A stretch of DNA of 47,767 bases, from positions 1 to 47,767 of the IMG/VR virus record IMGVR_UViG_3300030061_000503, one strand, 5' to 3'. The translations under genes and the position numbers were made by a program. The notes below the pieces were generated by a model, which saw nothing but the letters and a program-made list of their open reading frames with translations, was not told where the DNA came from and did no database searches. This DNA is from a virus. Positions 7,496 to 30,760 of this stretch are shown one piece after another (the first letter of the stretch is position 1; every line of letters starts with the position of its first letter).

Positions 7496-7550
7496 CCAAT
7501 AACCTATCTTAGACCTTACACAGAGAGCGATACGAAAAGTTGGTTATTGG
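7496..7550. repeat. CCAATAACC inverted repeat, 43-nt core spacing
   Basis: CCAATAACC (7496-7504) and GGTTATTGG (7542-7550) are perfect reverse complements. The CCAATA and TATTGG cores are separated by exactly 43 bases, the same distance as in the similar repeat at 30191-30245. Probably a protein-binding site for an initiator or regulator; the protein is unknown. Confidence 0.65.
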
Positions 7551-7574
7551 CATATTAGTTTATTTTAATTATTT

Positions 7575-7612
7575 TAGCATAAGTGCTTTATAAATTTTTA
7601 TTTCTATATAAT
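7575..7612 (+). promoter_or_regulatory. Early promoter upstream of replication operon
   Basis: A degenerate TAGCAT-AAG-TGCT element (7575-7587) is followed after 19 bases by a perfect TATAAT (7607-7612). The spacing matches the other copies of this promoter. Transcription would start near 7618, giving a leader of about 140 bases that contains the folded element at 7642-7725. Confidence 0.6.
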
Positions 7613-7641
7613 ACTAATAGCGTTAGTTAGTAGTAAAGGTG

Positions 7642-7725
7642 GTTGACGGTGCTACCTAAAGTCCGTGTTACTCAAGCGAGCAGCATAAAAACATACCCTT
7701 AATAGCTTGCGGACACATCGTCAAT
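7642..7725 (+). ncRNA. Structured 5' leader RNA of the replication operon
   Basis: A 10-bp outer stem pairs 7642-7651 (GTTGACGGTG) with 7716-7725 (CATCGTCAAT), with two G-U pairs. Inside it GTCCG (7661-7665) pairs with CGGAC (7710-7714), and after a 7-base one-sided bulge CAAGC (7673-7677) pairs with GCTTG (7705-7709). The apical loop is 27 bases. It lies between promoter and first gene, 32 bases before the ATG, as expected of a cis-regulatory RNA. It matches no riboswitch class I can name. Confidence 0.55.
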
Positions 7726-7756
7726 ATTATTAACTATTAAATAAGGTAAATTAACT

Positions 7757-8323
7757 ATGAGACCTAAAGAAAACATTGCCGATAAATTCGAAGAAGATAC
7801 TAAACAGCAAACAGATATCAAAGAAAAAGATTTAAGTAACATAAGCGAACTAGGTAGAGAACTAGAAGCTATGCAAACTATTATAGAAGCAGAAGAAAAA
7901 AGACTTAAAGAATTAAAAGAAGAGTATCGTAAATTAAGTGAAGATACACTACCTAATAAACTCAGAGAGATAGGCATAAGCGAGTTTAAATTAGAAGACG
8001 GTACACAAATGTCTATACAGCAATATTACTCCGCTAAAATAACTCCCGAGAATCGTGAAATATGTTTTAACTGGTTAGAACATAATGGACTCGGTGACGT
8101 TATTAAGAATACAGTTTCAGCTAACTTCGGTAGAGGTGAAGACGAAGTGGCACAAGAACTTATGGCAACGCTAGAGAAAGAAGGACATTCACTTACTCAA
8201 AGAAAGTGGGTGGAACCTATGACTCTAAAAGCACTTGTCCGTGAGCAGGTGGAACAAGGGAACGACCTACCCTTGGAAACCTTTAATGTTTATATAGGTC
8301 AAAAAATCAAGGTAAAGAAATAA
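7757..8323 (+). CDS. Conserved phage replication-module protein with N-terminal coiled coil
   Basis: 188 residues. Residues 25-68 form a strongly charged coiled coil. The C-terminal two thirds (FKLEDGT, YYSAKITPENRE, NTVSANFGRGEDE, LKALVREQ) match a conserved family I recall from many phages, always beside a protein like the next gene; no biochemical function is known to me. First gene of the early operon; its stop overlaps the ATG of the next gene by one base, so the two are probably made in fixed ratio. A partner or loader of the SSB-like protein is a guess. Confidence 0.75.
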   Translation: MRPKENIADKFEEDTKQQTDIKEKDLSNISELGRELEAMQTIIEAEEKRLKELKEEYRKLSEDTLPNKLREIGISEFKLEDGTQMSIQQYYSAKITPENREICFNWLEHNGLGDVIKNTVSANFGRGEDEVAQELMATLEKEGHSLTQRKWVEPMTLKALVREQVEQGNDLPLETFNVYIGQKIKVKK

Positions 8324-9102
8324 TGACTGATAACAAAGAAGAAAATGACAAGAAAGAAGTAACTAAGAAAACTTCAACAGACGTAGCTATCTCTTCTGCA
8401 TTCGAAGAGGATGCAGGCGGTGGTTTAGAAAATATGACAGCGGATGATTTTACTATCCCTCGTTTAAAAATTCTACAAGCATTGAGTCCTGAGGTTAACA
8501 AACGAGATGGTAAATACCTAGATGGTGCAGCAGCAGGTGATATCACCAACACTGTGACTAAAGAGTTATACACAGAGGACAGTGTATGTACAGTAATACC
8601 TGTAGCGTATAAACGTATGTATCTGGAGTGGCAACCTCGTGAGAGCGGTGGTGGTTTAGTTAACCAACACACAGATGCAAGTATCTTAGCTGAAACTAAG
8701 AAAGATGCTAATTACGCAGACGTATTGCCTAATGGTAACTACATACAGACTTCTGCTACTCACTACTGCTTAGTAGTAGGTGCGGGTGATTCCTTTCAGC
8801 AAGTGATGATTCCTATGGCAGGAACACAGTTAAAGAAATCACGTACGTGGAACTCTGTTATGTCTAGTATCAAAACTAAATCTAGTAAAGGTAATGTTTT
8901 TACTCCCCCTTCCTACAGCCAGAAATACAAACTTTCTACAGTCCAAGAGTCTAATGACCGTGGTAATTGGTTTGGTTGGAATATTGAGTTGATAGGCGCG
9001 TTGACAGAAACAGAGATGCATCTCTATGAATCTGCTAAGTATTTTGCTAATACAGTAACTGCAGATGCCCCTGCAACAGCAAGCGAAGACGTACCGTTTT
9101 AA
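8323..9102 (+). CDS. Probable single-stranded DNA-binding protein
   Basis: 259 residues. It ends in an acidic tail, SEDVPF, the hallmark protein-interaction tip of bacterial-type SSBs (D-x-PF), preceded by a flexible Ala/Thr/Pro linker. The body (about 45-235) is beta-rich with a YLEWQPRE segment typical of a phage family found beside primases and polymerases. The N-terminal 35 residues are charged and disordered. Role inferred: coats single-stranded DNA and recruits replication partners through the tail. I see no clear OB-fold signature by eye, so the fold remains open. Confidence 0.65.
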   Translation: MTDNKEENDKKEVTKKTSTDVAISSAFEEDAGGGLENMTADDFTIPRLKILQALSPEVNKRDGKYLDGAAAGDITNTVTKELYTEDSVCTVIPVAYKRMYLEWQPRESGGGLVNQHTDASILAETKKDANYADVLPNGNYIQTSATHYCLVVGAGDSFQQVMIPMAGTQLKKSRTWNSVMSSIKTKSSKGNVFTPPSYSQKYKLSTVQESNDRGNWFGWNIELIGALTETEMHLYESAKYFANTVTADAPATASEDVPF

Positions 9103-9118
9103 CTTAATTATCGATGCT

Positions 9119-9149
9119 CCTTTACTTTCCTTTTTAGGTAAAGGAAAGT
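9119..9149. repeat. Overlapping alternative hairpins before primase gene
   Basis: CCTTTAC (9119-9125) pairs with GTAAAGG (9138-9144), or ACTTTCC (9124-9130) with GGAAAGT (9143-9149); the two stems exclude each other. A related element (GATGCT, ACTTTCC, a CTTTACTAGTAAAG palindrome) lies at 12211-12236 behind the UvrD-like helicase, so the primase-helicase block is bracketed by similar elements. There is no T-run typical of a terminator. Confidence 0.45.
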
Positions 9150-9189
9150 AGAGGGCTCGGTTTTAATCCAAAAAACAAAGGAGATTTTG

Positions 9190-10701
9190 TTGGATACTGC
9201 AGAAAAACTACACGAAATATTTTACGGCTCTGCTAGGGCGCATGGTAGTTTTATTGTAGGTACTAGTTCCTTTGGTCAGAAAACACAAGGTACTGCTAAA
9301 ACTATAAAGACTATGGGGTCTAGTGTCAAGCACTGGCAGGATCATTTAAAAGGTGTTCGTGGACTAGGCGTAGTACCCATAGATGAGGAGAATTATGTTA
9401 GGTGGGGAGCTGTCGATATAGATACATACTCCTTAGATATCAAAAAGTTAGTATTAAAAATAGAAGAATTTAAACTACCGCTAGTTGTCTGTAGAAGCAA
9501 AAGCGGTGGTGCTCATGTATATTGTTTCCTAAAAGATAAAGCACCTGCTGGAGACATGCAGGATAAACTTAGAGAAATTTCTGCTGGTTTAGGTTACGGT
9601 GGTGTCGAGATATTTCCTAAACAACGAGAAGTATTAGTGGATAGAGGGGATATAGGCTCTTGGTTAAATATGCCATATTTTGAAGGCGATGAATCATTAA
9701 GGTATGGTTACGATACTAAGGGCGAAGCTTTGACAGTGGTTGATTTTATAAAATTTGTAGAAGAAAGATCACTTACTTATGAAGAACTAACAGGTCTAGA
9801 GGTTCCTACTCTCGACGATATAAAAGATGGTCCACCTTGTCTACAAGTATTACTTAAACAAGGGTTTCCACAAGGCACTAGAAATAATGGTTTATTTAAT
9901 GTCGGGGTATATCTTAAAAAGTCTACACCTGAAACATGGCAAACAGACATAGAAGAATACAACCGTAAGTATGTCCAACCACCATTACCTGCCCAAGAAG
10001 TTATGACTTTGATAGGTACGCTCAAGAAAAAAGAATACAATTATAAGTGTAGTGATGAACCTATTAGATCTTACTGTAACGTGGCTAAATGTCGTGGGTG
10101 TAAGTTCGGTATAGGTGGTAGTAATGCTACACCTACCTTTTCTAGTCTATCTAAATTAGACACTAAACCACCGTTATGGTTTTTATCTATAGATGATAAA
10201 AGATTAGAACTTACTACAGAACAATTACAGAATCAAATTAAGTTTCAGAGAGCGTGTATGGAAATACTTAATATGATGCCTCCTAAAATGCAAGAAAGAG
10301 CATGGCAAACTTTGATACAAACTTTAATGGACGGTGGTATGGAAATTATAGAGGTCAGTGATGACGTCACCATTGAAGGTCAGTTTATGGAATTACTTGA
10401 ATCTTTCTGCACAGATATGGCTCAAGCTAATACTCGAGACGAGATACTATTGGGTAAACCGTACACAGAAGAGGGTAAAACCTACTTTAGAATCAAAGAC
10501 TTAAAAGAGTATTTAGTGAAGCACAGGTTTACAGATATGGAAACTAACCGCATCGCCTCTAAGTTAAGGGATTTAAAAGCAGAACATAAGTTTTGGAATA
10601 TAAAAGGTAGAGGAACTAATGTCTGGTATATTAATGAGTTTGAGTATAGGACTGAGGATACTTCTTTAGAAACTAAGAACTTTACAGAAGGCGGTTTATA
10701 A
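9190..10701 (+). CDS. Archaeo-eukaryotic-type (AEP) DNA primase
   Basis: 503 residues from TTG 9190; the SD AAAGGAG ends six bases upstream, while the in-frame TTG at 9187 would be only three bases away. Primase motifs: DID (76-78) as metal-binding motif I, SKSGGAH (103-109) as the S-x-H motif, and EIFPKQ (140-145) as the third region. A four-cysteine cluster at 287, 296, 301 and 304 likely binds zinc. The C-terminal third is helical and may be a PriCT-like or winged-helix part. It should make primers for the family A polymerase; the UvrD-like helicase gene follows directly with a one-base overlap. Confidence 0.85.
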   Translation: MDTAEKLHEIFYGSARAHGSFIVGTSSFGQKTQGTAKTIKTMGSSVKHWQDHLKGVRGLGVVPIDEENYVRWGAVDIDTYSLDIKKLVLKIEEFKLPLVVCRSKSGGAHVYCFLKDKAPAGDMQDKLREISAGLGYGGVEIFPKQREVLVDRGDIGSWLNMPYFEGDESLRYGYDTKGEALTVVDFIKFVEERSLTYEELTGLEVPTLDDIKDGPPCLQVLLKQGFPQGTRNNGLFNVGVYLKKSTPETWQTDIEEYNRKYVQPPLPAQEVMTLIGTLKKKEYNYKCSDEPIRSYCNVAKCRGCKFGIGGSNATPTFSSLSKLDTKPPLWFLSIDDKRLELTTEQLQNQIKFQRACMEILNMMPPKMQERAWQTLIQTLMDGGMEIIEVSDDVTIEGQFMELLESFCTDMAQANTRDEILLGKPYTEEGKTYFRIKDLKEYLVKHRFTDMETNRIASKLRDLKAEHKFWNIKGRGTNVWYINEFEYRTEDTSLETKNFTEGGL

Positions 10702-12247: not shown

Positions 12248-12709
12248 ATGAATATATTTAAACTAGACAATACTATACAAGGCTGTGCTCAAATGCACTG
12301 CGATAAACACGTATCTAAAATGATACTTGAGTCTGCTCAAATGTTATGTACAGCTATGTGGTCTAATGATGAAGAAGCACCTTACAAACCTGTACATGCT
12401 AAACACCCTTGTACCTTATGGGCTGGAGCTAGTCTTGATAACTGGCTGTGGTTAAAAGACTTAACTATATACTTAAACGAGGAGTTTTGCTGGCGATACG
12501 ATAGAACTGTCAATCATAAATCAGCAGACGTTGTACTTTCTTTACCTAACCCGAATATAAAAAGTAAAGGATTACAACAGCACCCTCAGTGTATGCCTGA
12601 TGAGTACAAAGTTGAAAATGACGCAATAAAAGCGTATCGTAATTATTATATAGGAGAAAAGCATTTCGCTAAGTGGACTAAACGAGGAGTACCAGAATGG
12701 TATATGTAA
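12248..12709 (+). CDS. Conserved phage protein, first gene of modification cluster
   Basis: 153 residues. The N-terminal CDKHVSKMILESAQMLCTA stretch (18-36), the HPCTLWAG segment and the C-terminal MPDEYK, AYRNYY, FAKW and P-x-W blocks are a conserved phage family I recognise, often found beside thymidylate synthase-like and DNA-modification genes. Some databases loosely label it a pyrimidine-dimer glycosylase, but I see no catalytic match to DenV, so function is unassigned. Start ATG 12248 has no clear ribosome site. It overlaps the next gene by 13 bases. Confidence 0.7.
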   Translation: MNIFKLDNTIQGCAQMHCDKHVSKMILESAQMLCTAMWSNDEEAPYKPVHAKHPCTLWAGASLDNWLWLKDLTIYLNEEFCWRYDRTVNHKSADVVLSLPNPNIKSKGLQQHPQCMPDEYKVENDAIKAYRNYYIGEKHFAKWTKRGVPEWYM

Positions 12710-13539
12710 ATACAAAGTGGGATAACGTAGAAAATTTTTTCGGTTATATAAACGAAAGACATTTTATATATTTAAAACGACAGGACAATGAAAAACCGCC
12801 TTGGACTGAGGACAAGATAATACAGACCTATAGTTTCTGTAATGTTTATAGGGAATTAGATAAGGTTACTATATGGATAAGGGAGAACTGGAAAGAACCA
12901 TATAAAGACCACCCCCATATACCTTTCGCTATGTCTGTGGCACGTCAGATAAACCACCCACCAACTTTAAAAGCGATAGGTTTTCCTGAGTCATGGGATC
13001 CTACACGTGTAAAAGCTATAATGCAGGATAGAATGGATAATAAAAAGAAAGTGTACACTGGTGCGTATATGTTAACTGGCACTTTAGGAGGAACTAAGGT
13101 AGAACAAACTATAGATAAAATACTCACACCTTTATTCAATAACCCACCGAAACTTTACGAAGACAGTTTAGAAAAAACTTGGAAAGAATATCTACCGTAT
13201 GCTGGATTCAGTGGTTTTATGGCTTATGAGGTTGTAACTGATTTGAGATTTACAAAGCATTTAGAAAATGCTAAAGATATCATGACATGGGCTAATGCTG
13301 GTCCAGGAGCGAAACGTGGACTCAATAGAATACATAATAGAAAATTAGAGCAAACTATAAAGAAAGACCAGTTGACCGCAGAGATGAAAGAACTGTTAGA
13401 TGTCTCTGATGATTACCTAGACTTAGCGTTACCGCGTTTAGAAATGAGAGAAATAGAGCATTGCTTGTGTGAGTTTGATAAGTATGAGAGAGTACGTTTA
13501 GGTGAAGGCAGACCGAGGTCAAAATATAAGTATGGATAA
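12697..13539 (+). CDS. 5-hmdU DNA kinase helical-domain / aGPT-PPlase-like base-modification protein
   Basis: 280 residues. The conserved run is INERHFIYLKR (18-28), PWT, SFCNVYRELDKVTIWIRENW (46-65), FAMSVARQINHP (77-88), VYTGAYM (119-125), GFMAYEVVTDLR (173-184) and TWANAGPGAKRGLNRI (197-212). This fits the helical family that Iyer, Aravind and colleagues placed in phage thymine-hypermodification operons (5-hmdU DNA kinase helical domain, related to the alpha-glutamyl/putrescinyl thymine pyrophosphorylases). The GPGAKRGLNRI stretch resembles a helix-hairpin-helix DNA contact. There is no P-loop, so it is not itself a kinase. Neighbours (TAGT-like, Nmad1-like, ThyA-like) support a role on hydroxymethyluracil in DNA. 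Exact reaction unknown. Confidence 0.7.
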   Translation: MVYVNTKWDNVENFFGYINERHFIYLKRQDNEKPPWTEDKIIQTYSFCNVYRELDKVTIWIRENWKEPYKDHPHIPFAMSVARQINHPPTLKAIGFPESWDPTRVKAIMQDRMDNKKKVYTGAYMLTGTLGGTKVEQTIDKILTPLFNNPPKLYEDSLEKTWKEYLPYAGFSGFMAYEVVTDLRFTKHLENAKDIMTWANAGPGAKRGLNRIHNRKLEQTIKKDQLTAEMKELLDVSDDYLDLALPRLEMREIEHCLCEFDKYERVRLGEGRPRSKYKYG

Positions 13540-14038
13540 TTTAGATAATTTATTTGAGGTAGTGCGTGGCGGTACAATAAAAAGGTATCACACGCTAGAA
13601 ACCATTGGTGAACAGTCCGTAGGTGCTCACTCTTGGGGTGTGGCTATAATACTACAGTATCTAGAACCTAATATAAGTAAGATAGCTATATTAAAGGCAC
13701 TTACCCATGATGTAGCTGAACTATATACAGGAGATATTCCCGCACCTGTTAAATGGGATAACCCTGATTTAATCAAATCATTAAAATCAATAGAGCTTGC
13801 TTACGAGAAGAAACTAGACATAGATTACAGCACTGTTTTAGGAAAAAAGGAAGCACTTTTATTTAAACAAGCCGACATGTTTGAACTGTTATTTTTCTGT
13901 ATGCGTCAAAGAAAAATGGGTAACACTAATATGAACATGGTATTTAGCAACGGTGTTGAATACTTAGCAAATCAAAAGTTAAATAAACGCGGTTCAAATC
14001 TACTCGGTAAACTTATAGAGGAGTATGGAGGCATATGA
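13532..14038 (+). CDS. HD-domain 5'-nucleotidase-like hydrolase (YfbR type)
   Basis: 168 residues from ATG 13532, which overlaps the previous stop; an in-frame GTG at 13502 adds ten unlikely residues. HD-superfamily metal ligands: H33 in AHSW, H59-D60 in THDVAEL, then GDIPAPVK, and a later Asp in KQADMFE. The layout resembles YfbR/HDDC2 deoxynucleoside 5'-monophosphatases. In this cluster it could remove canonical dTMP or recycle nucleotides so that a modified pyrimidine replaces thymine; that is inference from context. Confidence 0.75.
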   Translation: MDNLDNLFEVVRGGTIKRYHTLETIGEQSVGAHSWGVAIILQYLEPNISKIAILKALTHDVAELYTGDIPAPVKWDNPDLIKSLKSIELAYEKKLDIDYSTVLGKKEALLFKQADMFELLFFCMRQRKMGNTNMNMVFSNGVEYLANQKLNKRGSNLLGKLIEEYGGI

Positions 14039-14355
14039 AAAAGCAGAAAAAATTTCAAGAAATGCTAGACATAGTTGAACAAGATGTAGACGAGCTTGTA
14101 GAAGCAGAGAAAAGTTATGGCAATAGTTGGCGTAAGCGTGGCGGTATCGGTGCGTTTATGATGCTGGCTCGTAAATGGGATAGGATAGAGAATCAAGTTA
14201 GATGCCATAACTTTGATATATTCTCTGCGATAAGAAATGATACAAGACCAGAAGGTATCATGGACGACATACACGATTTAAGAAGATATTTAATATTAGT
14301 AGAGCAGTACGCAACTAGGAGCGATGATGAAGATATACATACCGACGAGGGGTAG
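14035..14355 (+). CDS. Nmad1-like (DUF1599) nucleotide-modification-associated protein
   Basis: 106 residues. SYGNSWRKRGGIGAFMML (23-40), ARKWDRIENQV and the C-terminal GIMDDIHDLRRYLILVE helix match, from memory, the DUF1599 family renamed nucleotide modification associated domain 1. It starts at ATG inside an ATGA overlap with the HD gene and its end overlaps the glycosyltransferase start, so all are co-translated. The family's chemistry is not established; a role in making or handling modified nucleotides is presumed from its repeated linkage to such genes. Confidence 0.65.
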   Translation: MKKQKKFQEMLDIVEQDVDELVEAEKSYGNSWRKRGGIGAFMMLARKWDRIENQVRCHNFDIFSAIRNDTRPEGIMDDIHDLRRYLILVEQYATRSDDEDIHTDEG

Positions 14356-15118
14356 ACCCGATAACCAAGAAACACTCAAGTGGTTTCCAGAAAGCATGAT
14401 TAAAGATGGAACAGTAGTGTTAGCCATAGATGAAGACGAGCAGGATAAATACACTAAATACCCAGATGTAGAAAAGTTGATAGTCCCTTCATTCATTAAA
14501 GGTATTAGTTATAAAAGAAAATACATAATAGAACAAAGTTACGATCCACGTGTAGTTATGCTAGACGATGATTTACGGTTTTATGTCCGTAAGAGCGCGG
14601 ACGATTGGCATTTAAGATATGCAGAGCCAGAAGAATATCCTGCTTTATTTGGGTTACTTGATGAATGGATGGATAAAGGTTACGCTCATGTAGGGATAAG
14701 TGCTAGAGAAGGTAATAATCGAGTAGAAGAGTTAGCCGTAGAGAATACTAGATATATGAGAGTATTGGGGTATAATCTAGAAGCTTTCCCTAAAGATATT
14801 GAGTGGGGTAGAACTCGGGTGATGGAAGATTTTGATATATCTTTACAACTGCTTAGGAGAGGTAAATCCTGTAAGGTAAGTTATTTCTATGCTCAGGGTC
14901 AAAAGTCTTCTAATGCTGACGGTGGCTGTAGTGAGTGGAGAACTATCGACGTACATAACGCAGGTGCTGATAGGCTACATGAACTCCACCCTAATTGTGT
15001 TAGGGTGGTAGAAAAACAAACTAAAACTGCGTGGAATGGTTTACCTCGTAGGGATGTAATAGTAGGATGGAAAAAAGCATACAAGGAAGGTGTAGAATAT
15101 GCAAACAATAACAGTTAG
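14327..15118 (+). CDS. TAGT-like (TET-associated) GT-A glycosyltransferase
   Basis: 263 residues. ATG 14327 is preferred over ATG 14324 because the AGGAG is five bases away. N-terminal KIYIPTRGRP (2-11) is the GT-A nucleotide-sugar start; MLDDDL (78-83) gives the metal-binding DxD; GISAREGNN (123-131), MEDFD (166-170), GGCSEWRT (199-206) and a C-terminal VGWKKAYKEG follow. This pattern resembles the TAGT family described beside TET/JBP enzymes in phages, which transfers sugars to hydroxymethylated pyrimidines in DNA. No TET/JBP gene is visible here, so the hydroxymethyl group would have to come from the nucleotide pool. Glycosyltransferase fold is fairly sure; DNA as acceptor is inferred. Confidence 0.7.
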   Translation: MKIYIPTRGRPDNQETLKWFPESMIKDGTVVLAIDEDEQDKYTKYPDVEKLIVPSFIKGISYKRKYIIEQSYDPRVVMLDDDLRFYVRKSADDWHLRYAEPEEYPALFGLLDEWMDKGYAHVGISAREGNNRVEELAVENTRYMRVLGYNLEAFPKDIEWGRTRVMEDFDISLQLLRRGKSCKVSYFYAQGQKSSNADGGCSEWRTIDVHNAGADRLHELHPNCVRVVEKQTKTAWNGLPRRDVIVGWKKAYKEGVEYANNNS

Positions 15119-16136
15119 AAATGTACATGAAGCACTGCCCAGAGGTCTAGATTATCTAGATCAAAGCGGAGTATTATTAGACAGTAGGAACGGTATGATG
15201 TATGAAGCACCGTGTCCCGTCACCACTGTTTATAAAAAACCTGATGAACGAGTAGTTTTCTGGGCGCATCGTAACGCTAACCCTTATTTTCATTTTATAG
15301 AAGGGTTATGGATGTTGAAAGGCGGTAAAGATTTAGAAACTGTAGAGTGGTATGCTAAAAGCATGAGAAACTACAGTGACGATGGTAATATTTTGTGGGG
15401 AGCCTATGGTTGGAGGTGGCGTAGTTTTTTCCAGCAAGACCAGTTAAAAGTAATTATTGGGATGCTTAGGAAAAACCCAGACGATAGGAGAGCGGTCTTA
15501 CAAATGTGGAGTATAAAAGATTTAGCTCGTCAAGGTAAAGATGTGCCTTGTAATACTTGTATATATTTTAAGATACGAGATGGTTTACTAAACATGACTG
15601 TATCTAACAGGTCTAATGATGTAATATGGGGTGCGTATGGTGCTAACGCAGTACACATGTCCATGCTTCAAGAATATATGGCACGTAGGATTGGTGTAGG
15701 GATAGGTGTGTATAATCAAGTGAGCGACAGCTATCACGCATATAAAGATATTTTCGATGATCTTTTACAGAAGTTTGCTGAAGATGATATACTAGACTAC
15801 TATGTTCAATCATTACCGCAAAGCGTATCAAGCATGAATCCCTACAGAACTGGGCAGGTAGAACCTTACCCCATGATATCTCAGTACTGTACAGAAACAT
15901 GGGATTATGAGTTAGGGTTATTTTTCCGCAGAAAGCCACTAGAAAAGTCAAGTCTTAAACATAAAGATAAGTTTAGAAAAGCAGATCCTTTCTGGGCAGA
16001 AGTAGCCATACCTATACAAGACTCTTGGGAATACTGGAAGGAAGGTAACATAAGTTCTGCCATAGATAAACTAGAGGATTGTAAAGCTACTGACTGGAAA
16101 AAAGCATGCGTGGAGTGGCTAGAGAGGAAAGTATGA
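15099..16136 (+). CDS. ThyA-family enzyme: thymidylate synthase or dUMP hydroxymethylase
   Basis: 345 residues. ThyA-fold motifs: FIEGLWML with E68, NILWGAYGWRWR (97-108), RRAVLQMW, catalytic C151 in VPCNTCIYF, NRSNDVIWGAYGAN (170-183) and SYHAY (211-215). Two things differ from ordinary thymidylate synthase. The PCHxxxQF box is PCNTCIYF, closer to T4 dCMP hydroxymethylase, and the usual C-terminal Met-Ala-Val lid is replaced by an 80-residue helical tail. The base-selecting Asn (N183) is kept, which favours dUMP over dCMP. With its neighbours this suggests 5-hydroxymethyl-dUMP synthesis, but plain dTMP synthesis cannot be excluded. It overlaps the glycosyltransferase gene by 20 bases. Confidence 0.88.
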   Translation: MQTITVRNVHEALPRGLDYLDQSGVLLDSRNGMMYEAPCPVTTVYKKPDERVVFWAHRNANPYFHFIEGLWMLKGGKDLETVEWYAKSMRNYSDDGNILWGAYGWRWRSFFQQDQLKVIIGMLRKNPDDRRAVLQMWSIKDLARQGKDVPCNTCIYFKIRDGLLNMTVSNRSNDVIWGAYGANAVHMSMLQEYMARRIGVGIGVYNQVSDSYHAYKDIFDDLLQKFAEDDILDYYVQSLPQSVSSMNPYRTGQVEPYPMISQYCTETWDYELGLFFRRKPLEKSSLKHKDKFRKADPFWAEVAIPIQDSWEYWKEGNISSAIDKLEDCKATDWKKACVEWLERKV

Positions 16137-16813: not shown

Positions 16814-18696
16814 TGCAGAATCCACTGTTTCCACCTGACGTAGACTGGTCACCGCCTACCTCGTTCCCTGATTTAAGAGGGCAAAAGACCATAGCGATTG
16901 ATTTAGAAACTAAAGATCCATGGCTCATGTCCCATGGTCCAGGTTGGGCATTTAAGGATAGAGGTTTTATTATAGGTATTGCGATAGCTACCGAGGGATA
17001 TAAAGCATACTTTCCTGTGGCTCATGAAGTAGGTGGTAATTTAGATAAAACAGTGGTTTATAGATGGTTGAAAAAACAACTAGAAGCACCTAATGAAAAA
17101 GTATTTCATAACGCTCAGTACGACGTAGGTTGGTTAATGAGAGAAGGATTTACTATCAATGGTAAAATACACGATACTATGATGGCAGCTCCATTGCTCA
17201 ATGAGAATCAGTATGGGTATTCTTTAAACAAGGTAGGTAAAGAATATTTAGGTGAAGAAAAAGATGAGTCCATGTTGATAGAGGCTGCACAGGTGTACGG
17301 TATAAACCCGAAAGCAGAAATGTATAGGCTACCGCCAGAGTATGTAGGAAACTACGCTGAGCAGGACGCAGATTTAACCTACAGGCTATGGAATAAGCTA
17401 AAGGTAAGTATGGCTGGAGAAAATATTCAACCTATATACGAACTAGAGAGTTCTTTATTACCTGTGTTGGTAGATATGCGTATGAGGGGAGTCAGGATAG
17501 ATGTAGATAAATCTCAACAGGTCAAGAAAAAATTAAGACAAGCAGAAAATAAAATAGTCTCTGAAATAAAAAGGTGGTATGGACTAAAACCAGATTTATG
17601 GGCAGCACAATCACTATCACAAGTGTTCGATAGGGCAGGTCTTGAGTATCCTAAAACACCTAAGACCAATGCACCTAGTTTTCAAGCTAAGTGGCTTGAA
17701 GAACATACACACAAACTACCACTAGCGATAGCTAAAGCAAGAAAATTAAACAAAGCACGTACCACATTTATAGACAAGATGATACTAGAACATTTAGTAG
17801 ACGGTAGGATACACGGAGAACTTCACCCTCTCAGGTCTGATGATGGCGGTACTGTTACTGGTAGATTTAGTTGCTCTAAACCTAACCTTCAACAAGTGCC
17901 TGCTAGAGATCCTGAGATTGGTCCACTTATACGAGGTTTATTTATACCAGAAGAGGATTGTCACTGGGGGTGTTTTGATTACTCTCAACAAGAACCTAGA
18001 CTAACGGTGCATTACTCAGTATTAACGCATCAAGAAGGAGCAGAGGAGGCAGCAGCAGATTACTCGGGTGATGCTGACTTTCATCAGATAGTAGCTGATA
18101 TGGCTAATATAACTCGTAAAGAGGCTAAGATTATTAACTTAGGATTAAGTTATGGTATGGGTAAAGAAAAGCTAACCCATCAGCTAGGTATAAGCCCAGA
18201 AGAAGCAGAAGTATTATTTGACCAGTATCATAAGCGAGTGCCTTTTGTCCGTGGATTACGGGACTCTGCAGCTCGTCAGGGGTCAAATAGGGGGTATGTC
18301 AACACTATACTTGGTCGTAAGTGTCGATTTAACCTTTATGAACCAGTAGACAGAAGAGCTCTACCACAACCTTATGAAAAGGCAGTTGAGGAGTACGGAA
18401 CTCAGTTAAGACGTGCGTACACATATAAAGCTATGAATCGTCTTATACAAGGTTCAGCAGCAGATATGACAAAACAAGCAATGCTGGATCTACACAACGA
18501 AGGTATTTTAGCGCATACACAAGTACATGATGAGTTAAATATATCTGTGAAAGATAAACCTGAGTGTGAAAAAGTAATGGAAATAATGCGAGACTGTGTT
18601 AAGTTAAAAGTACCAAACAAAGTTGATGGAGAGATAGGTAAAAACTGGGCAGATGTAACAGACTACAGGAAATATTTCAATGATGAAAAAAGCTAA
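16813..18696 (+). CDS. Family A DNA polymerase with 3'-5' exonuclease
   Basis: 627 residues. Proofreading motifs: D30-E32 in AIDLET, N100/D104 in HNAQYD, Y181/D185 in YAEQD. Polymerase motif A is DYSQQEPR (389-396); motif B is RKEAKIINLGLSYG (435-448), with K439 and Y447 at the E. coli K758 and Y766 positions; motif C is HDEL (572-575). The residue matching E. coli F762 is L443. There is no N-terminal 5'-3' exonuclease domain. This is the replicative polymerase, paired with the AEP primase and SSB-like protein upstream. ATG overlaps the preceding stop (TAATG). Confidence 0.96.
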   Translation: MQNPLFPPDVDWSPPTSFPDLRGQKTIAIDLETKDPWLMSHGPGWAFKDRGFIIGIAIATEGYKAYFPVAHEVGGNLDKTVVYRWLKKQLEAPNEKVFHNAQYDVGWLMREGFTINGKIHDTMMAAPLLNENQYGYSLNKVGKEYLGEEKDESMLIEAAQVYGINPKAEMYRLPPEYVGNYAEQDADLTYRLWNKLKVSMAGENIQPIYELESSLLPVLVDMRMRGVRIDVDKSQQVKKKLRQAENKIVSEIKRWYGLKPDLWAAQSLSQVFDRAGLEYPKTPKTNAPSFQAKWLEEHTHKLPLAIAKARKLNKARTTFIDKMILEHLVDGRIHGELHPLRSDDGGTVTGRFSCSKPNLQQVPARDPEIGPLIRGLFIPEEDCHWGCFDYSQQEPRLTVHYSVLTHQEGAEEAAADYSGDADFHQIVADMANITRKEAKIINLGLSYGMGKEKLTHQLGISPEEAEVLFDQYHKRVPFVRGLRDSAARQGSNRGYVNTILGRKCRFNLYEPVDRRALPQPYEKAVEEYGTQLRRAYTYKAMNRLIQGSAADMTKQAMLDLHNEGILAHTQVHDELNISVKDKPECEKVMEIMRDCVKLKVPNKVDGEIGKNWADVTDYRKYFNDEKS

Positions 18697-18976
18697 GTTG
18701 CGTAAAATGTATTTCGACATATACATGAAATATACAAACAACGACACTAGTTTAGAAGACATAGGTTTAAATTACAACATTTCAAAACAGAGAGTATGGC
18801 AAATAATCAGGTTCTGTAAACTTGGTAATGGTGATTATTACACAGGGCTGAAAGACTATAATGAAAGAATCAAAAAGATAAAACATTACTATCCTTCAGC
18901 TTCCGCAAAAGAAATAAATCAATTAATGAGACAGTGGTTAAGAATAAATAATATAAGGTTAATTAAAAATGGGTAA
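18680..18976 (+). CDS. Small helix-turn-helix DNA-binding protein
   Basis: 98 residues, basic. Residues 22-44 (SLEDIGLNYNISKQRVWQII) look like a sigma-70 region 4 or GerE-type helix-turn-helix: acidic helix, Gly/Asn turn, then SKQRVWQI recognition helix. Start ATG 18680 overlaps the polymerase gene by 17 bases; AGGA lies nine bases upstream. It could be a transcription factor that helps host RNA polymerase use the phage promoters, but no target is known. Confidence 0.65.
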   Translation: MMKKAKLRKMYFDIYMKYTNNDTSLEDIGLNYNISKQRVWQIIRFCKLGNGDYYTGLKDYNERIKKIKHYYPSASAKEINQLMRQWLRINNIRLIKNG

Positions 18977-21552: not shown

Positions 21553-21784
21553 AATAACAGATGAAGTACCTATACCAGACCGTACTACACCTAGAAATAA
21601 TAAGTACGATCTACATAAAATGGGAATAGGCGACAGCTTTTCATTGCCCTATGACGGAGAAGCGGTGCAGAGGGTGAGAGTTGCAGTTTCTAACTACGGT
21701 ACTAGGAACGATAAAAAATTCACCACTCGTAAACTTGTAGAAGATAGCGGTGAACCTGTGTTTAGGGTTTGGAGAGTAGCGTGA
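21545..21784 (+). CDS. Small conserved-type phage hypothetical protein
   Basis: 79 residues. DKYDLHKMGIGDSF-like beginning and a basic, beta-rich second half (VRVAVSNYGTRNDKKFTTRK) look like a small folded phage protein of unknown role. ATG overlaps the previous gene and its stop overlaps the next start (GTGA). Confidence 0.6.
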   Translation: MYEITDEVPIPDRTTPRNNKYDLHKMGIGDSFSLPYDGEAVQRVRVAVSNYGTRNDKKFTTRKLVEDSGEPVFRVWRVA

Positions 21785-22254
21785 ATGATAAAAAACTCAC
21801 ACCTAAACAAGAAAAGTTTGCTCAGAACGTAGCGAAAGGTATGAAGAAAAAAGACGCTGCGAAAAAAGCAGGGTATAGTGATAAGAATGCAAGTAGAGCA
21901 GGAACTGTATTGGCAAGCAACAAAAATCCTGTAGTCAAGAAACGCATACAAGAGTTACAGACCAAAGCAGCAGATAAAGCGGTGGTAGATTTGACTACCC
22001 ATTTAACTGATCTCAAAGATATTCGTGACGGTGCTATGCGTAATGGAGCGTGGTCTGCTGCCGTAACAGCCGAGGTCAATAGAGGTAAAGCAGCAGGATT
22101 GTATGTGAATCGTAGTGAGATAGTCGTAAACAAAGTAGAGACTATGAACAAAGATCAAATACTTGCAAGAATGAAAGAAATATACCATGAAACAGGCGGT
22201 ATATTACCTACAGGAACACTTATAGAGGGCGACTATGAAGAAAAAACTGATTAA
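21781..22254 (+). CDS. Terminase small subunit (TerS)
   Basis: 157 residues from GTG 21781 (GTGA overlap; GGAGAG four bases upstream), preferred over TTG 21769. N-terminal LTPKQEKFAQNVAKGMKKKD-AAKKAGYS is the helix-turn-helix of the Terminase_2 family, followed by NPVVKKRIQEL and a helical oligomerisation region. It should bind the packaging site on phage DNA. Unusually it sits about 12 kb before terL, in the accessory region rather than in the packaging operon. Confidence 0.8.
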   Translation: MNDKKLTPKQEKFAQNVAKGMKKKDAAKKAGYSDKNASRAGTVLASNKNPVVKKRIQELQTKAADKAVVDLTTHLTDLKDIRDGAMRNGAWSAAVTAEVNRGKAAGLYVNRSEIVVNKVETMNKDQILARMKEIYHETGGILPTGTLIEGDYEEKTD

Positions 22255-23383: not shown

Positions 23384-23863
23384 ATGAAAAAACCAGTTAC
23401 AGACACAGTATTAGTTACAAAATATGATGACTCTGACTGGTACGAAGCAGAAGTAAATAGTCTGTTGAGCGTACAGTTTACTGCCTCTTTAACTAACGAT
23501 GTGGTCGGTATAAGATTTTTCTTTTACAGAGACTACAACATAACTTGGAGAGATCCAGAGGAGATAAACATGGGTGCAATGAAACAAGCAGCACTAAAAG
23601 CTACAAGTAAACCAACTAAGTTGAAAGTATCGAAGACTAACCTTAAAAAAGCAGTAGACAAATCTAAAGATAAGGTGGCTGTGAAAGGTCTTGATTTAGA
23701 TTCAATAATTATCAAGACTGCTAAACAAGCTAGGTCTAAGGAGAATCGCGAACGCCACGAGGAGTTAAGTGGTATGACAGTAAAGGAAGCTCTCGCCACT
23801 CGTAGAGTAGAGGGTAAGGATTTACGATACGACCTTGAAAAAGGTTTCATGCAGTACAAGTAG
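23384..23863 (+). CDS. Hypothetical protein with C-terminal ERHEE domain
   Basis: 159 residues: an N-terminal beta-rich part (1-60), a lysine-rich linker (70-105), and a C-terminal block, ENRERHEELSGMTVKEAL then YDLEKGFMQY (about 120-159). This block is shared with the proteins at 30761 and, on the minus strand, 31260. The N-terminal half is absent from those, so this is a domain fusion within one local family. Function unknown. Confidence 0.65.
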   Translation: MKKPVTDTVLVTKYDDSDWYEAEVNSLLSVQFTASLTNDVVGIRFFFYRDYNITWRDPEEINMGAMKQAALKATSKPTKLKVSKTNLKKAVDKSKDKVAVKGLDLDSIIIKTAKQARSKENRERHEELSGMTVKEALATRRVEGKDLRYDLEKGFMQYK

Positions 23864-25693: not shown

Positions 25694-25864
25694 ATGGTTG
25701 TTAAGAAAAAACAATTATTGATTAACTGCTCTCACGATGCTAAACTAATTGCCAATTTTAATAAAGTAAGATTAGATCTTGAAGCAGAAACAGGACTGAA
25801 AATGTCCACCGCGAATGTATTACGATATCTAGTACATAGTCACTTAACTAAAAAGGGGAAATAA
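25694..25864 (+). CDS. 56-residue ribbon-helix-helix-like protein
   Basis: ATG 25694 has AGGAGAA upstream. Residues 1-12 (MVVKKKQLLINC) could form the DNA-binding strand, 16-34 a first helix, and 38-52 (MSTANVLRYLVHSHL) a second, as in CopG/Arc-type regulators. Assignment is by shape only. It ends three bases before the next start. Confidence 0.5.
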   Translation: MVVKKKQLLINCSHDAKLIANFNKVRLDLEAETGLKMSTANVLRYLVHSHLTKKGK

Positions 25865-26129: not shown

Positions 26130-26351
26130 ATGGACGAAGCAATAATATTAACAGGTAAGCAAGTACCTTTAGCTAGATTACTGGCTATGAAAGCAGCATT
26201 GAAGATGGAAATCATAGGGCTAACTAGAAGTAGAGGTCAGTCTATGTATTCATTAATTAAACAAGAACTAGGTTTAAAAGGCAATAAGCAAAATGTATTG
26301 TCTCAACTAGAAGACTACATAGGCGAGGAGATGATAAATGGGCACTCGTAG
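26130..26351 (+). CDS. Small conserved phage protein (LARLLAMKAALKMEI family)
   Basis: 73 residues. LARLLAMKAALKMEIIGLTR, GQSMYSLIKQELGLKGNKQ and a C-terminal helix match a short family seen in very many phages, function unknown to me. Its end overlaps the next gene by 14 bases. Confidence 0.65.
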   Translation: MDEAIILTGKQVPLARLLAMKAALKMEIIGLTRSRGQSMYSLIKQELGLKGNKQNVLSQLEDYIGEEMINGHS

Positions 26352-26916: not shown

Positions 26917-26940
26917 TGATGACTATACTCTATATTATTA
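26896..26940 (+). promoter_or_regulatory. Promoter with flanking GTCAT/ATGAC arms
   Basis: GATCATGCTTAGTGATGAC is flanked by GTCAT (26896-26900) and ATGAC (26919-26923); a TATATTATTATTTATA box follows. It overlaps the 3' end of the preceding gene. AAGGAG follows at 26970-26975. Confidence 0.5.
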
Positions 26941-26982
26941 TTTATACGCTTTTTAAATAACTAACTATTAAGGAGAACTGTC

Positions 26983-27414
26983 ATCAAAAAAGCAATCATA
27001 AAAAACGGTTGGGAAATACTCCCTACAACAGAAACGCAGTCAGGTCTTTTCATGCAGGAAAACTGGATGTACAACGAAGGTCAGGCTAAACTAGAACAAG
27101 ATATCCTTCTCGATATGCTTAAACTATTCATCACTAATAAGGCTGAAGAGTACGGGTACTTTTTCAGTGAGATTCATGAGCATAAACGTCCAGAAGATAT
27201 ACCTACTCAGTGGTCAACTGTATACTACTCACCTGTGCATCACTATTACGACTCTGGTGAATATAATATTATAGAAACTGCCTCAACTAAGGATTATGTT
27301 TACTATAGTATTTCGTTGCATGGTAGTAGTTTTGCCTCCGCTCTTACCGAGTATGTGAGGTTAGCTACTCCTAACGGTCGTGCTAAACTCAATGATGCGT
27401 ATTTAGGTAAGTGA
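26983..27414 (+). CDS. Hypothetical phage protein, apparent AUC start
   Basis: 143 residues if it starts at ATC 26983, placed seven bases after a strong AAGGAG; the first ATG is at 27052 and has only a weak site. No ATG, GTG or TTG lies in frame between the upstream stop (26962-26964) and 27052. The N-terminal text (KKAIIKNGWEILP) reads like real protein. Rest: acidic, aromatic, no recognised domain. A sequencing error at the start codon is an alternative. It ends in a GTGA overlap with the next gene. Confidence 0.55.
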   Translation: MKKAIIKNGWEILPTTETQSGLFMQENWMYNEGQAKLEQDILLDMLKLFITNKAEEYGYFFSEIHEHKRPEDIPTQWSTVYYSPVHHYYDSGEYNIIETASTKDYVYYSISLHGSSFASALTEYVRLATPNGRAKLNDAYLGK

Positions 27415-27593
27415 AGAGTAACGTAACCTGCACGAGCTGTCATAGGCTCGTGCAGGAAAAACGTGCTGCTTTAGGCTATACCACCTGCCTCTCTTGCGGT
27501 AGTGCTAAACGTGTATTCACCGTGGCACCTGCTTATAATAAGGGAGCGTACCAACTCATTGGTATCAATAATATAAAAGACATCGGCAGGTAA
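27411..27593 (+). CDS. Small zinc-ribbon protein
   Basis: 60 residues from GTG 27411. CTSC (7-10) and CLSC (26-29) form a Cys4 ribbon; QEKRAALGYTTCLSCG and FTVAP-YNKGAYQLI match a phage zinc-ribbon family common beside early genes. Its first codons contain a perfect 11-bp hairpin (27427-27456). Confidence 0.7.
   Translation: MKSNVTCTSCHRLVQEKRAALGYTTCLSCGSAKRVFTVAPAYNKGAYQLIGINNIKDIGR
27427..27456 (+). repeat. Perfect 11-bp GC-rich hairpin inside coding sequence
   Basis: CCTGCACGAGC (27427-27437) pairs with GCTCGTGCAGG (27446-27456) over an 8-base loop, followed by five A. It lies six codons into the zinc-ribbon gene, where it should slow translation or transcription. Confidence 0.7.
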
Positions 27594-27810
27594 GTCAACC
27601 TAGTCGAGCGTGTTTTTACTACCCCTAACCCTAGTATTACCCTATAAAGATGAATTACTGGAGCGTAAATAAAAGCCGATCCACCGCGGTCAACCCTAGT
27701 AAAACCGCCTATATATAAGGGTATATGTGATTAGTGATCGTCCTAGTTAGGGAATAAGTTCTTAGTTATTATATATTTATAAGTTAATTAACTAACAGGA
27801 GGAATAACTT

Positions 27811-28116
27811 ATGGCAGTAAAATATACTATGAAAGACTATGAATATTTAATCGGTGAAGGCGGTGATATTCATGTATATAACGGTACTTCGTTGCCACGT
27901 ATGTCTTGGAAAAAACTAACTAAGTCAGCAGCGAAAAGTGAGTTTAAGAAATACTTACCGCCCGTTGATGAGTTATGGCTAGAATATACTGAAGAAGCTA
28001 AAGCGGTATATGAAGGTATACGGGATGAGTACGTAGAAAAAGTAGGAGATATCGGGATGCTTTATTACCGCTTTGAATTTAGTGACCGTAGAAAAATATT
28101 TAGGGTGACTCCATGA
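27811..28116 (+). CDS. Hypothetical phage protein
   Basis: 101 residues; CAGGAGG precedes ATG 27811. MKDYEYLIGEGGDIHVYNG, then a helical basic/acidic part. No family recognised. ATGA overlap with the next gene. The 217 bases before it hold a weak promoter-like copy (27727-27780, GTGATTAGTGAT, TATTATATATTTATAAG) and nothing else clear. Confidence 0.55.
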   Translation: MAVKYTMKDYEYLIGEGGDIHVYNGTSLPRMSWKKLTKSAAKSEFKKYLPPVDELWLEYTEEAKAVYEGIRDEYVEKVGDIGMLYYRFEFSDRRKIFRVTP

Positions 28117-28502
28117 GTAAAATATATGAGTTTACGCTACATCCTAGCGGTTATGATCCAAAGTCGCCTCGCTTTTATCGTATAGGAGCAGGCACTTTGA
28201 ATGATGGCATAGCTATAATAAAAGATATGGAGAAGCAGTTCGTTGCGTGGTGTGACGGTCAGGAGATAGCTGGTTCTCCTCCCTCGATGTCGCTAGAGCA
28301 AAATATGAAGCAAATGTTTAAACTCCGTATACCTGCAGATCCTACACCTATATGGCTGTGGGAAGGTGCTGACCTGTACGCTACAGGTGGTCCATTCGGT
28401 GAGTACTGGAAACAACACATCACCAATGACTTTGAATGTGACGCGCCTAGTCTCGAAAAGTATTACTTCACTTACCCATATAAATGGGAGAAAGATACAT
28501 GA
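28113..28502 (+). CDS. Hypothetical phage protein
   Basis: 129 residues. Beta-rich start (KIYEFTLHPSGYDP), then a helix with DGIAIIKDMEKQFVAWCDG, then PADPTPIWLWEG. The order strand, helix with ...KDMEKQ..AW, then TPIW resembles the protein at 29679 (VVRDIETQHEEW, YIPIYTLE), so the two may be paralogues; weak evidence. ATGA overlap with the next gene. Confidence 0.55.
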   Translation: MSKIYEFTLHPSGYDPKSPRFYRIGAGTLNDGIAIIKDMEKQFVAWCDGQEIAGSPPSMSLEQNMKQMFKLRIPADPTPIWLWEGADLYATGGPFGEYWKQHITNDFECDAPSLEKYYFTYPYKWEKDT

Positions 28503-28675
28503 GTAAACCTAAACTTAAAGAATATAAATTAACCAGAACAACTCACACAGTAGAAGACTGTTTCGTGATGGCTACAGACTGGGAAGAAGCTGAAGAGAAA
28601 GGATATCTTGAAGAACAAAAGTGGAACTTTTTAGAGGACCAAGCAGATATAGAGGCAGAAGAAATGGATATGTGA
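28499..28675 (+). CDS. Small acidic hypothetical protein
   Basis: 58 residues from ATG 28499 (ATGA overlap, GGGAGAAAG upstream). EYKLTRTTHTVEDCFVMATDWEEAEEKG suggests a strand-then-helix fold of a type often seen in phage accessory proteins. No function. Confidence 0.55.
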   Translation: MSKPKLKEYKLTRTTHTVEDCFVMATDWEEAEEKGYLEEQKWNFLEDQADIEAEEMDM

Positions 28676-28720
28676 TTAGTGATTTGTGCTAGGTGATCTA
28701 GTATTCATTAGTTATTATTT
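28673..28720 (+). promoter_or_regulatory. Promoter with 10-bp flanking stem
   Basis: TGCTAGGTGATC (28687-28698) lies between arms 28673-28682 and 28705-28714, which can form a 10-bp stem with G-U pairs. A GTTATTATTTATTTA box follows; AAAGGGGAA precedes GTG 28752. Confidence 0.5.
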
Positions 28721-28751
28721 ATTTACGTTAATTAAATAAAGGGGAATAAAA

Positions 28752-28928
28752 GTGAAGCAGTTATATAAGATAATACGGTTTAAAGCATCTCAAAAAGCTA
28801 AGAACAGAGTTATTAAAAGAAACCTGACCTTATTTGAAGCACAAAAACATTGCAACGACCCAAAGAGTCGCGAGCAAGGAAAGTGGTTCGATGGCTATAC
28901 TAAACAAACAATGCCAAAAACTAGTTAG
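28752..28928 (+). CDS. 58-residue conserved phage protein (YKIIRF...WFDGY family)
   Basis: GTG start with AAAGGGGAA upstream. YKIIRFKA, VIKRNLTLFEAQKHCNDPKS and KWFDGY match a short family present in many phages (usually Y-x-V-IRF, I-KRGLTLEEAQ-HC, WFDGYE). Function unknown. It is below common length cut-offs and easily missed. It ends in a TAGTTAGTTAG run with stops in all frames. Confidence 0.7.
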   Translation: MKQLYKIIRFKASQKAKNRVIKRNLTLFEAQKHCNDPKSREQGKWFDGYTKQTMPKTS

Positions 28929-28939
28929 TTAGTTAGTAA

Positions 28940-28995
28940 TGATGCCCCTTTCATTTAGCACTATGCTAGGTGATCGGGGTTTTCGTTTATATAAT
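28940..28995 (+). promoter_or_regulatory. Promoter in CCCC/GGGG stem
   Basis: TTAGCACTATGCTAGGTGATC (from 28951) is enclosed by CCCC (28941-28944) and GGGG (28972-28975); 19 bases after GCT comes TTATATAAT with a perfect TATAAT (28986-28991). GGGG is followed by TTTTCGTTT, so on RNA it may also terminate the upstream transcript. Confidence 0.6.
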
Positions 28996-29028
28996 TATAA
29001 AGTAAGTTAAATAATAAAGGAGAATGTA

Positions 29029-29583
29029 GTGAACAATCTACAAATATATGTGGACCATGTTCAGCCAGTAGTCAAGACTATTAATAAACACCACAATGAG
29101 TTTTATACTCTTTGGTATTATAACCTTAGTCCTGAAGATTTGTTTACTGAAGACTGCTTAGTAGAATTCATGACTCAAGATACAGGTCTGCCTGAACACT
29201 TTAGTGGTAATATGCCTATGGTCTATGCTCAGTGGGGTGAAGAGACTGGTGCTAGTATGGTGTTAGAATTATCACCAGAGAATCGTAAGTTACTCAGTCC
29301 AGAAGTTACTAAGGTGCTGTCGGGTGAGTATCATCGTGAAGCTAGTCAAGTAGGTGAGGACTGGGAGAAGTCTGCTGATGAAACTGTATATGTGCTTATG
29401 GATCACCAGTACTATTCAACCTGTGCTGGTTTTGAACCTGCCGATGATTATAGTTACATCAGTAGTGATACTGTTGAACATGCTCTAGATTTCCTGTCTA
29501 ATCGTCTAGGTATTAACTACCTGAACATTGATGAGGCACGAACCGATCTTGAGTGGAAATTACAACCATCTAGAATAGTTTAG
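29029..29583 (+). CDS. Acidic hypothetical phage protein
   Basis: 184 residues from GTG 29029 with AAGGAG upstream. Very acidic, rich in Tyr/Trp, no cysteine motif or signal. No family recognised. Acidity and isolated promoter suggest a host-inhibition or DNA-mimic type role only as speculation. Confidence 0.55.
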   Translation: MNNLQIYVDHVQPVVKTINKHHNEFYTLWYYNLSPEDLFTEDCLVEFMTQDTGLPEHFSGNMPMVYAQWGEETGASMVLELSPENRKLLSPEVTKVLSGEYHREASQVGEDWEKSADETVYVLMDHQYYSTCAGFEPADDYSYISSDTVEHALDFLSNRLGINYLNIDEARTDLEWKLQPSRIV

Positions 29584-29591
29584 TTAGTGGT

Positions 29592-29645
29592 GGGGGCTTC
29601 ATTTAGCATTATGCTAGGTGATCACCCCCTTCTTTACTATAGTTA
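29592..29645 (+). promoter_or_regulatory. Promoter in GGGGG/CCCCC stem
   Basis: Perfect palindrome TAGCATTATGCTA (29604-29616) between GGGGG (29592-29596) and CCCCC (29625-29629); 19 bases after GCT follows TACTATAGTTATAAAG. Nearly identical to the copy at 28940 except that the arms are swapped (C/G becomes G/C) with pairing kept. Confidence 0.65.
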
Positions 29646-29678
29646 TAAAGTAAGTTAATTAAATAAAGGGGAATACGT

Positions 29679-30047
29679 ATGACAACATACATGATAGGTT
29701 TACAGTTAGTACCAGCTCAATTTAGAAGCGACCGACGTCGTGACCTTATGAAGAAGGCTGACTTTAAACTAAAAGACCATTACATCGTAGCGTTTAACAA
29801 AACTCTCAACGAAGCTGTTAAGGTAGTGCGTGATATAGAGACTCAACATGAAGAGTGGAAAAATGATGAGGACGGTATATTAGCCGAGGACGAAAACTTT
29901 TACTTACCCGAGGTGAGTGAACTAAATTATATACCTATATATACTCTTGAAGTATATACACCTGTGGCAGTTTCCGTTAGAATGAGTGACTACCCTGACT
30001 ATGTGTGGGAGTCTGGACCAGATGGATATTGGCGAAAAAATAATTAG
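29679..30047 (+). CDS. Hypothetical phage protein
   Basis: 122 residues; AAAGGGGAA precedes ATG 29679. Basic start (FRSDRRRDLMKKADFKLKDHY), a helix EAVKVVRDIETQHEEW, then an acidic stretch and YIPIYTLEVYTPVAV. Possible paralogue of the 28113 protein. It ends in ATTAGTTAGTTAG. Confidence 0.55.
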   Translation: MTTYMIGLQLVPAQFRSDRRRDLMKKADFKLKDHYIVAFNKTLNEAVKVVRDIETQHEEWKNDEDGILAEDENFYLPEVSELNYIPIYTLEVYTPVAVSVRMSDYPDYVWESGPDGYWRKNN

Positions 30048-30760
30048 TTAGTTAGTCGGTAGGGATCCTCCACATTCCCTTTTTAAACAAGTTTGGTGCA
30101 CTTGCCCGACGAAGAAGCACCCCTTTCTATATTACCTCTCACGAATTCTACTTAATAATTTTACACAAATCTTTGCGTTTAGCCAATAAGCCAATAGCCT
30201 TCTCTCTGTATCCATCGCAGCTTGTCCTTTTTTAAGGGCTATTGGCTATCGTATTGGCGACCTATTGGCTTGGAACAGGTAATACGACCATTGTCCATGG
30301 TCCATGGTAACTTGATGGTAAGAATGGCATAGGTGTGATAAAGCATGTGAAAGATCTTTAGACAGTGGTTTGTGGACTGTGGGAGATTATATATAGAAAC
30401 TAGGATCGAACGGACACTGATCTACGGACAGAAATCCTACAGAAATGTACCATGGACCACGAAACATGGACTTTTAGCCAATAGGGTAATAGGTTATGAT
30501 CAGATCTGAATGTCCTCTGTAAACTAATTGGGTAAATAATGATCAGATCGGATCTGAAGATGCCACGGTCCATGGTCCATGTGCTCGCATGCGATAGATC
30601 ACACTGTGATCGCACTGTGATCTGAACTGTTTATTCATAAATTAATTAATGATCTTGCTTTACTTCTTATATACTTTACTTTACTATATAAGGGTAGGTT
30701 ATAGTTATAAGGGTACTATAACTTCAACTAACTAACTAACCCTTTATATAGGTGATTAAG
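30048..30760. other. Repeat-rich non-coding region before the late module
   Basis: About 710 bases with no convincing gene. Contents: an inverted repeat GCCAATAGCC / GGCTATTGGC (30189-30246) with further CCAATA/TATTGG copies at 30183, 30252, 30263 and 30478; CCATGGTCCATGG (30295-30307) and related CCATGG sites at 30450 and 30570; TGATCAGATC palindromes (30497-30509, 30540-30557); TCGCATGCGA (30585-30594); GATCACACTGTGATC (30598-30612); and CACTGTGATC twice, 11 bp apart. Density of palindromes and iterons suggests an origin, packaging site or regulatory hub; which of these is not decidable here. Confidence 0.55.
30189..30246. repeat. GCCAATAGCC inverted repeat, 43-nt core spacing
   Basis: GCCAATAGCC (30189-30198) and GGCTATTGGC (30237-30246) are perfect reverse complements. 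The CCAATA and TATTGG cores are 43 bases apart, exactly as at 7496-7550. Adjacent extra cores (30183, 30252, 30263) make this the fuller copy. Confidence 0.65.

Follow-up and report, generated by a model that had tools for sequence, protein, structure and literature searches.

The viral record IMGVR_UViG_3300030061_000503 of IMG/VR comprises 47,767 bases (the window, that is, the whole stretch of DNA analysed here) and contains two inverted repeats of identical spacing. By comparing related phages we could show that each repeat is the centre of one copy of a larger, asymmetric array of six half-sites. One copy (region 1) lies between the replication operon and a helicase gene and the other (region 2) ahead of the late genes. 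We suggest that both arrays belong to a transcription-control element through which a phage-made regulator would switch the replication and late operons, a reading drawn from the DNA sequence to which we assign a somewhat better than even probability of about 0.55.

A conserved array of six half-sites

The window has exactly two occurrences of the pattern CCAATA-N43-TATTGG (7496–7550 and 30191–30245), and dinucleotide shuffles have none. The arms of the repeats are CCAATAACC/GGTTATTGG in region 1 and AGCCAATAGCC/GGCTATTGGCT in region 2. In both regions these arms are part of the same order of sites, F1 +8 F2 +47 R1 +12 R2 +11 R3 +18 F3, in which the F half-sites read AATA, the R half-sites read TATT and the fuller consensus is approximately GSYAATAGG (Table 1).

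A sequence-only reading of this DNA had described paired perfect inverted repeats with 43 nt between them, placed ahead of the replication module and ahead of the late module, and had suggested that they serve an origin initiator or an early/late switch. Both repeats are present and their placement is borne out, with one architecture common to both sites. Equally the spacing is fixed while the intervening sequence differs: most of the spacer varies, with some spacer positions retained in region 2. The notion of an inverted-repeat pair, however, had to be widened to the six-site array. The AATAGG runs reported beside the repeats do exist, but the pair at about 7470 corresponds to R2 and R3 of the region-1 array and the pair at 30480/30488 is an extra tandem with 8-bp spacing. 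The proposed helical phasing of the contacts applies only in part, as the sites are stepped by 8, 12, 11, and 18 bp.

Within the window the coincidence is weak. Seventeen pairs of a 6-mer core and a gap recur, compared to a mean of 4.6 in shuffles, which speaks against the significance of the shared spacing in this sequence taken by itself. Perfect 9-nt inverted repeats with comparable gaps are about as frequent in the window (15) as in shuffles (2–20). Thus, the relatives had to decide, and it is the comparative evidence that carries the claim; despite the weak coincidence, the comparative scans rule out a chance origin of the shared spacing.

Relatives were retrieved via the helicase and large terminase proteins. 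The first 106 fetched loci together with the window gave 40 full-geometry matches, a count in which the two sites of the window are included more than once, and the reversed sequences of the same set gave none. Scanning 2.9 million viral contigs for the array geometry yielded 98 stretches, corresponding to 100 places including the window. The arrays are carried by a large group of phages, uncultivated and for the most part marine. At 31 of the 100 places the array separates the replication operon from the helicase gene and is directed at the helicase; the other 69 were classed as late-gene context and are directed at the late genes, some being assigned by default as the flank was too short for a marker gene. 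The arrays are hence kept at the same two places in relatives and almost no further matches are found outside these contexts, and on both counts the original claim survives.

Conserved are the AATA and TATT cores, their orientation and their spacing, with a core-to-core gap between F2 and R1 of 42–44 nt, rarely 40, in the relatives, whereas perfect arms of 9–11 bp are peculiar to the lineage of the window. The half-site F3 was outside every search pattern, yet AATA is found 14 nt past R3 in all 25 distinct region-2 arrays; in region 1 this holds for 6 of 17 arrays, and several others have AATT. A weight matrix from which the window had been excluded has its top five window matches in the region-2 array (four sites) and in the tandem at 30480 (one site).

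A census anchored on proteins, and thus independent of the motif, gives the phylogenetic limits of the element. The array is located beside 11 of 11 helicases with at least 70% identity and beside none of the eight with at most 56% identity. Terminases of at least 70% identity with at least 4.9 kb of upstream sequence nearly all have the array (L083 being the exception), and the control gave zero. No array is present in HTVC023P, HTVC027P, 023Pt_psg01, and DSL-LC04, and the main text of a paper on HTVC023P-type phages (PMC9599517) has no mention of an inverted repeat, palindrome, promoter, intergenic region, or replication origin. A search of bacterial and archaeal genomes (257 Gb) gave 19 geometry matches, spread across unrelated taxa, most of them AT-rich, as expected by chance. 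An element of host genomes can therefore be dismissed. The same numbers make it improbable that the array is bound by a host protein instead of a phage protein, simpler host sites being conceivable.

Near-complete genomes never carry more than two arrays, and several have only one exact match. Where both are present they are on opposite strands and mostly ∼19–25 kb apart. Such inverted copies bracket an early region of ∼20 kb and, as recombination sites, could invert it. We consider this barely credible: among contigs with recognisable neighbours the two contexts never mix, so that no inverted form of the early region was seen, the two arrays of one genome have different spacers, and there is no recombinase among the proteins scanned.

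The arms of the repeats do not covary. Identity of the sequences flanking F2 and R1 is 4.04 of 8 positions within a genome and 3.99 across genomes, which argues for a DNA site rather than an RNA hairpin. An RNA hairpin or structured leader was rejected, as there are no compensatory changes in the arms and no Rfam family matched. A possible structure at ∼7620–7740 was likewise discarded, its folding being no better than that of shuffles.

Table 1. Position of the array sites and of neighbouring features in the window.
Feature	Position	Strand	Remark
Superfamily II helicase gene, downstream of region-1 array	5942–7387	−	phrog_62, E 2e-117
Putative helicase-promoter −10	7418–7423	−	GATACT/TATAAT ∼25 nt past box B in many relatives
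Region-1 array and box B, directed at helicase	7447–7556	−	31 homologous places, same context
Region-1 sites	F1 7553–7556, F2 7545–7548, R1 7498–7501, R2 7486–7489, R3 7475–7478, F3 7457–7460, box B 7447–7455	−	
Putative replication-operon promoter, TTTTAGCATA, then TATAAT (7607–7612)	7572–7612	+	
Thymine hypermodification genes: HMUDK_hel (aG/PT-PPlase-like), HD nucleotidase, TAGT glycosyltransferase, thymidylate-synthase-like	12248–16136		
Candidate array binder, 98 aa, helix-turn-helix (sigma-70 region 4/UPF0122/Mor-like)	18680–18976	+	Distribution, model
Small terminase (Terminase_2) gene	21769–22254		
Region-2 array, directed at late genes	30185–30284	+	69 homologous places; weight-matrix matches
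Region-2 sites	F1 30185–30188, F2 30193–30196, R1 30240–30243, R2 30252–30255, R3 30263–30266, F3 30281–30284	+	
Box B TAAAGCATG, downstream of region-2 array	30339–30347	+	Offset conserved across genomes
TATATATA box, putative late promoter −10	30388–30395	+	40–42 nt past box B
Extra F-8-F tandem GCCAATAGGGTAATAGG	30480–30491	+	213 nt past region-2 array; similar offset in about one fifth of relatives
Small basic protein, first gene past region-2 array	30752–30991	+	Several paralogues per genome
Island nearly free of TG/TC/CA/GA	31208–31677		Downstream of region-2 array; link to array positional only

Proposed transcription control and a candidate regulator

The surroundings of the arrays suggest how they could work. 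In multi-site operators and enhancer arrays of phages, one short motif is repeated in a fixed arrangement near a promoter; the arrays show this arrangement and are close to promoter-like motifs. A second motif, box B (TAAARCATG), follows the array at narrow offsets in 22 of the 31 region-1 and 51 of the 69 region-2 places, and in most cases a TATA-like box lies past it, at ∼25 nt in region 1 and at 40–42 nt in region 2. R3 and the helicase gene are separated by 72–108 bp in nearly all region-1 members. Region 1 thus reads as a stretch of divergent promoters, with a putative promoter for the helicase on one side and one for the replication operon on the other. Downstream of the putative late promoter, a 25-nt inverted repeat with 80% complementarity (30403–30427/30795–30819) joins the presumed late leader to the start of the gene at 30752 and is possibly a leader control.

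A protein with a helix-turn-helix motif (18680–18976) is the best candidate for the regulator of the arrays. Its clade-specific gene was found in nine of ten array-bearing genomes and in none of four array-free genomes. Within its second helix, the recognition helix, K-Q-R, W-Q-I and R are invariant. The structure model is confident (mean pLDDT 92). Similarity to sigma-70 region 4 is weak. Matches in Pfam are below threshold (UPF0122, Sigma70_r4, Mor), and the best Foldseek E-value is 0.49. Two other proteins were considered. The ribbon-helix-helix-like open reading frame 25694–25864 was rejected as it is not among the open reading frames shared by four or more array-bearing genomes, and the small basic protein 30752–30991 gave no fold or sequence match.

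Given the rigid geometry around a variable spacer, we infer that one multi-subunit protein complex is bound. One protein, probably in several molecules, would occupy all six sites and fold the ∼100 bp into a defined complex. The first copy would act from between the divergent helicase and replication promoters and the second from its place ahead of the late operon, each on the operon at which it is directed. The regulator would activate rather than repress these outward promoters and might in addition repress the replication promoter.

Several observations weigh against this proposal. Within the window box B is found only at the two arrays, but this count of two is at chance level (1.47 expected), and the significance of the motif stems from the offset to the array that is conserved across genomes. 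The distance from box B to the TATA-like box is unequal in the two regions, and the two promoters are thus not alike in build. Matches to the sigma-70 consensus near both regions are not clearly above those in shuffles. The link between the helix-turn-helix protein and the array is a correlation, with the hypermodification genes and other clade-specific genes sharing the same distribution, and in one array-bearing genome no copy of the protein was detected.

The main alternative is that the arrays are paired replication origins, or an origin with a distant helper site as in phage P4, at which iterons would be bound by a phage initiator that opens AT-rich DNA. Consistent with this, helicase and primase genes are located beside one copy, the sites are direct and inverted, iteron-like and stepped by 8–12 bp, AT-rich DNA adjoins F1, and there are at most two arrays per near-complete genome. 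Region 1 has the AT-rich sequence and adjoining replication genes of an iteron origin, whereas region 2 lies away from the replication genes. Moreover, neither array coincides with a turning point of the GC skew beyond what gene strand explains, a weak test as the skew tracks the gene strand, and replication genes are common to array-free relatives too. Because box B, the TATA-like boxes, the tight distance to the helicase start, and the outward orientation point to promoters, we favour transcription control and regard an origin pair as rather unlikely.

Packaging sites (pac or cos) for the small terminase are a still more improbable explanation. Region 2 is found 1.5–5 kb upstream of the large terminase gene, and a small terminase gene was identified in the window. 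Against this, the identical array is present before the helicase gene, a place where a further cut would be hard to explain, two of the four array-free relatives also have the small terminase, and many near-complete genomes have two arrays instead of the one site per genome unit of pac or cos.

None of the systems to which we compared the arrays shares sequence, geometry and two-copy layout with them. The satellite phage P4 has with ori and crr two separate cis sites that contain the same iterons and are served by one protein, in this case for replication. The two-site layout is alike, but iterons and geometry differ and no alpha-type initiator was identified here. In parC of plasmid R1, which belongs to the ParM/ParR system, two groups of direct iterons with ∼11-bp steps flank a spacer of ∼40 bp; two groups and a spacer are also found in the arrays, but here the groups are inverted, and no ParM/ParR-type proteins were seen. 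Nearest to the predicted way of working is the p4/p6 early-late switch in the A2c-A2b-A3 region of phi29. There a sequence-specific regulator has several sites with inverted repeats, located between the early and the late promoters, and ∼120 bp are remodelled into a hairpin (PMC3100819). However, phi29 uses a single region with four CTTTTT-15 bp-AAAATG sites, whereas six half-sites of other sequence and spacing are present here in two copies per genome, and there is no p4-like protein among the proteins scanned. For the late genes the nearest system is RinA/Ltr of phages of Gram-positive bacteria, small basic DNA-binding activators whose target promoter precedes the genes for terminase and late functions. 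Potential binding sites in that system are repeats found upstream of the start, four direct ones in the case described (PMC13123087). In contrast to the ltr genes, which are directly upstream of their own promoter, the candidate gene is ∼11 kb away, and the sites of the arrays occur in both orientations and as a second copy at the replication module.

The TG/TC-free island past region 2

Some 1.1 kb past the region-2 array there is a run of 284 nt (31394–31677) without TG or TC on either strand; in simulated sequence the longest such run was 50 nt. Including that of the window, 14 islands with runs of 100–284 nt were found downstream of region-2 arrays; close relatives account for some of these islands. 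In many relatives they are located 0.5–2 kb past the array, whereas in other genomes the minimum is weaker or absent. When the island is compared to that of L135, 31 substitutions have left a single dinucleotide of the TG/TC type, whereas 2,000 random trials gave a mean of 19 and a minimum of 9; the absence of these dinucleotides is thus maintained while the sequence changes. At the homologous spot of L197 and L219 the TG/TC-free run is replaced by a repeat of the GGTGCTC type with many TG and TC dinucleotides.

In the phages M6, ViI, and phiW-14, sites resistant to restriction suggest that TG and TC are the dinucleotides that become hypermodified (PMC6449724). The window has genes of the same chemistry (Table 1), most of which are shared by all ten array-bearing genomes of the comparison and missing from the four array-free ones. 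The island may be exempt from thymine hypermodification. As a tentative and rather doubtful extension, the region-2 array and the island could form one late-control or packaging locus kept free of hypermodification for a machine that reads the DNA, be it a polymerase, the terminase, or a regulator. Among named phages chosen for a relative of the protein encoded at 12697–13539 (YuA, phi_M6, MW2, Pam3, Simon, LuckyBarnes, PhiW-14, and, in their first 50 kb, Ab18 and Sonora) no TG/TC-free islands are found, the longest runs being at most 37 nt. Some weak TG/TC minima in YuA, Ab18, Sonora, and Pam3 precede terS or the helicase gene.

The small basic protein encoded past the region-2 array belongs to a family with several copies per genome, a shared C-terminal motif (RHxxLxGKTVxEAL...DIKYDxxKGF) and no known relative found. 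Further members in the window are 23384–23860 and a paralogue on the minus strand at ∼31262–31501. The latter is convergent to the gene at 30752–30991, lies largely within the island and has no ATG, GTG, or TTG start, a loss that may follow from the avoidance of TG, as all three start codons contain this dinucleotide.

If the island is indeed exempt, it would represent an element of a new kind, in which exemption from modification is encoded in the sequence itself. Phages with hypermodified thymine would then have to leave some of their DNA bare, indicating a step that does not tolerate the modification. The array is specific enough to identify the clade in metagenomes from DNA alone. With a candidate regulator, its putative sites and two target operons, it would give a handle on gene control in a widespread clade of uncultured phages.

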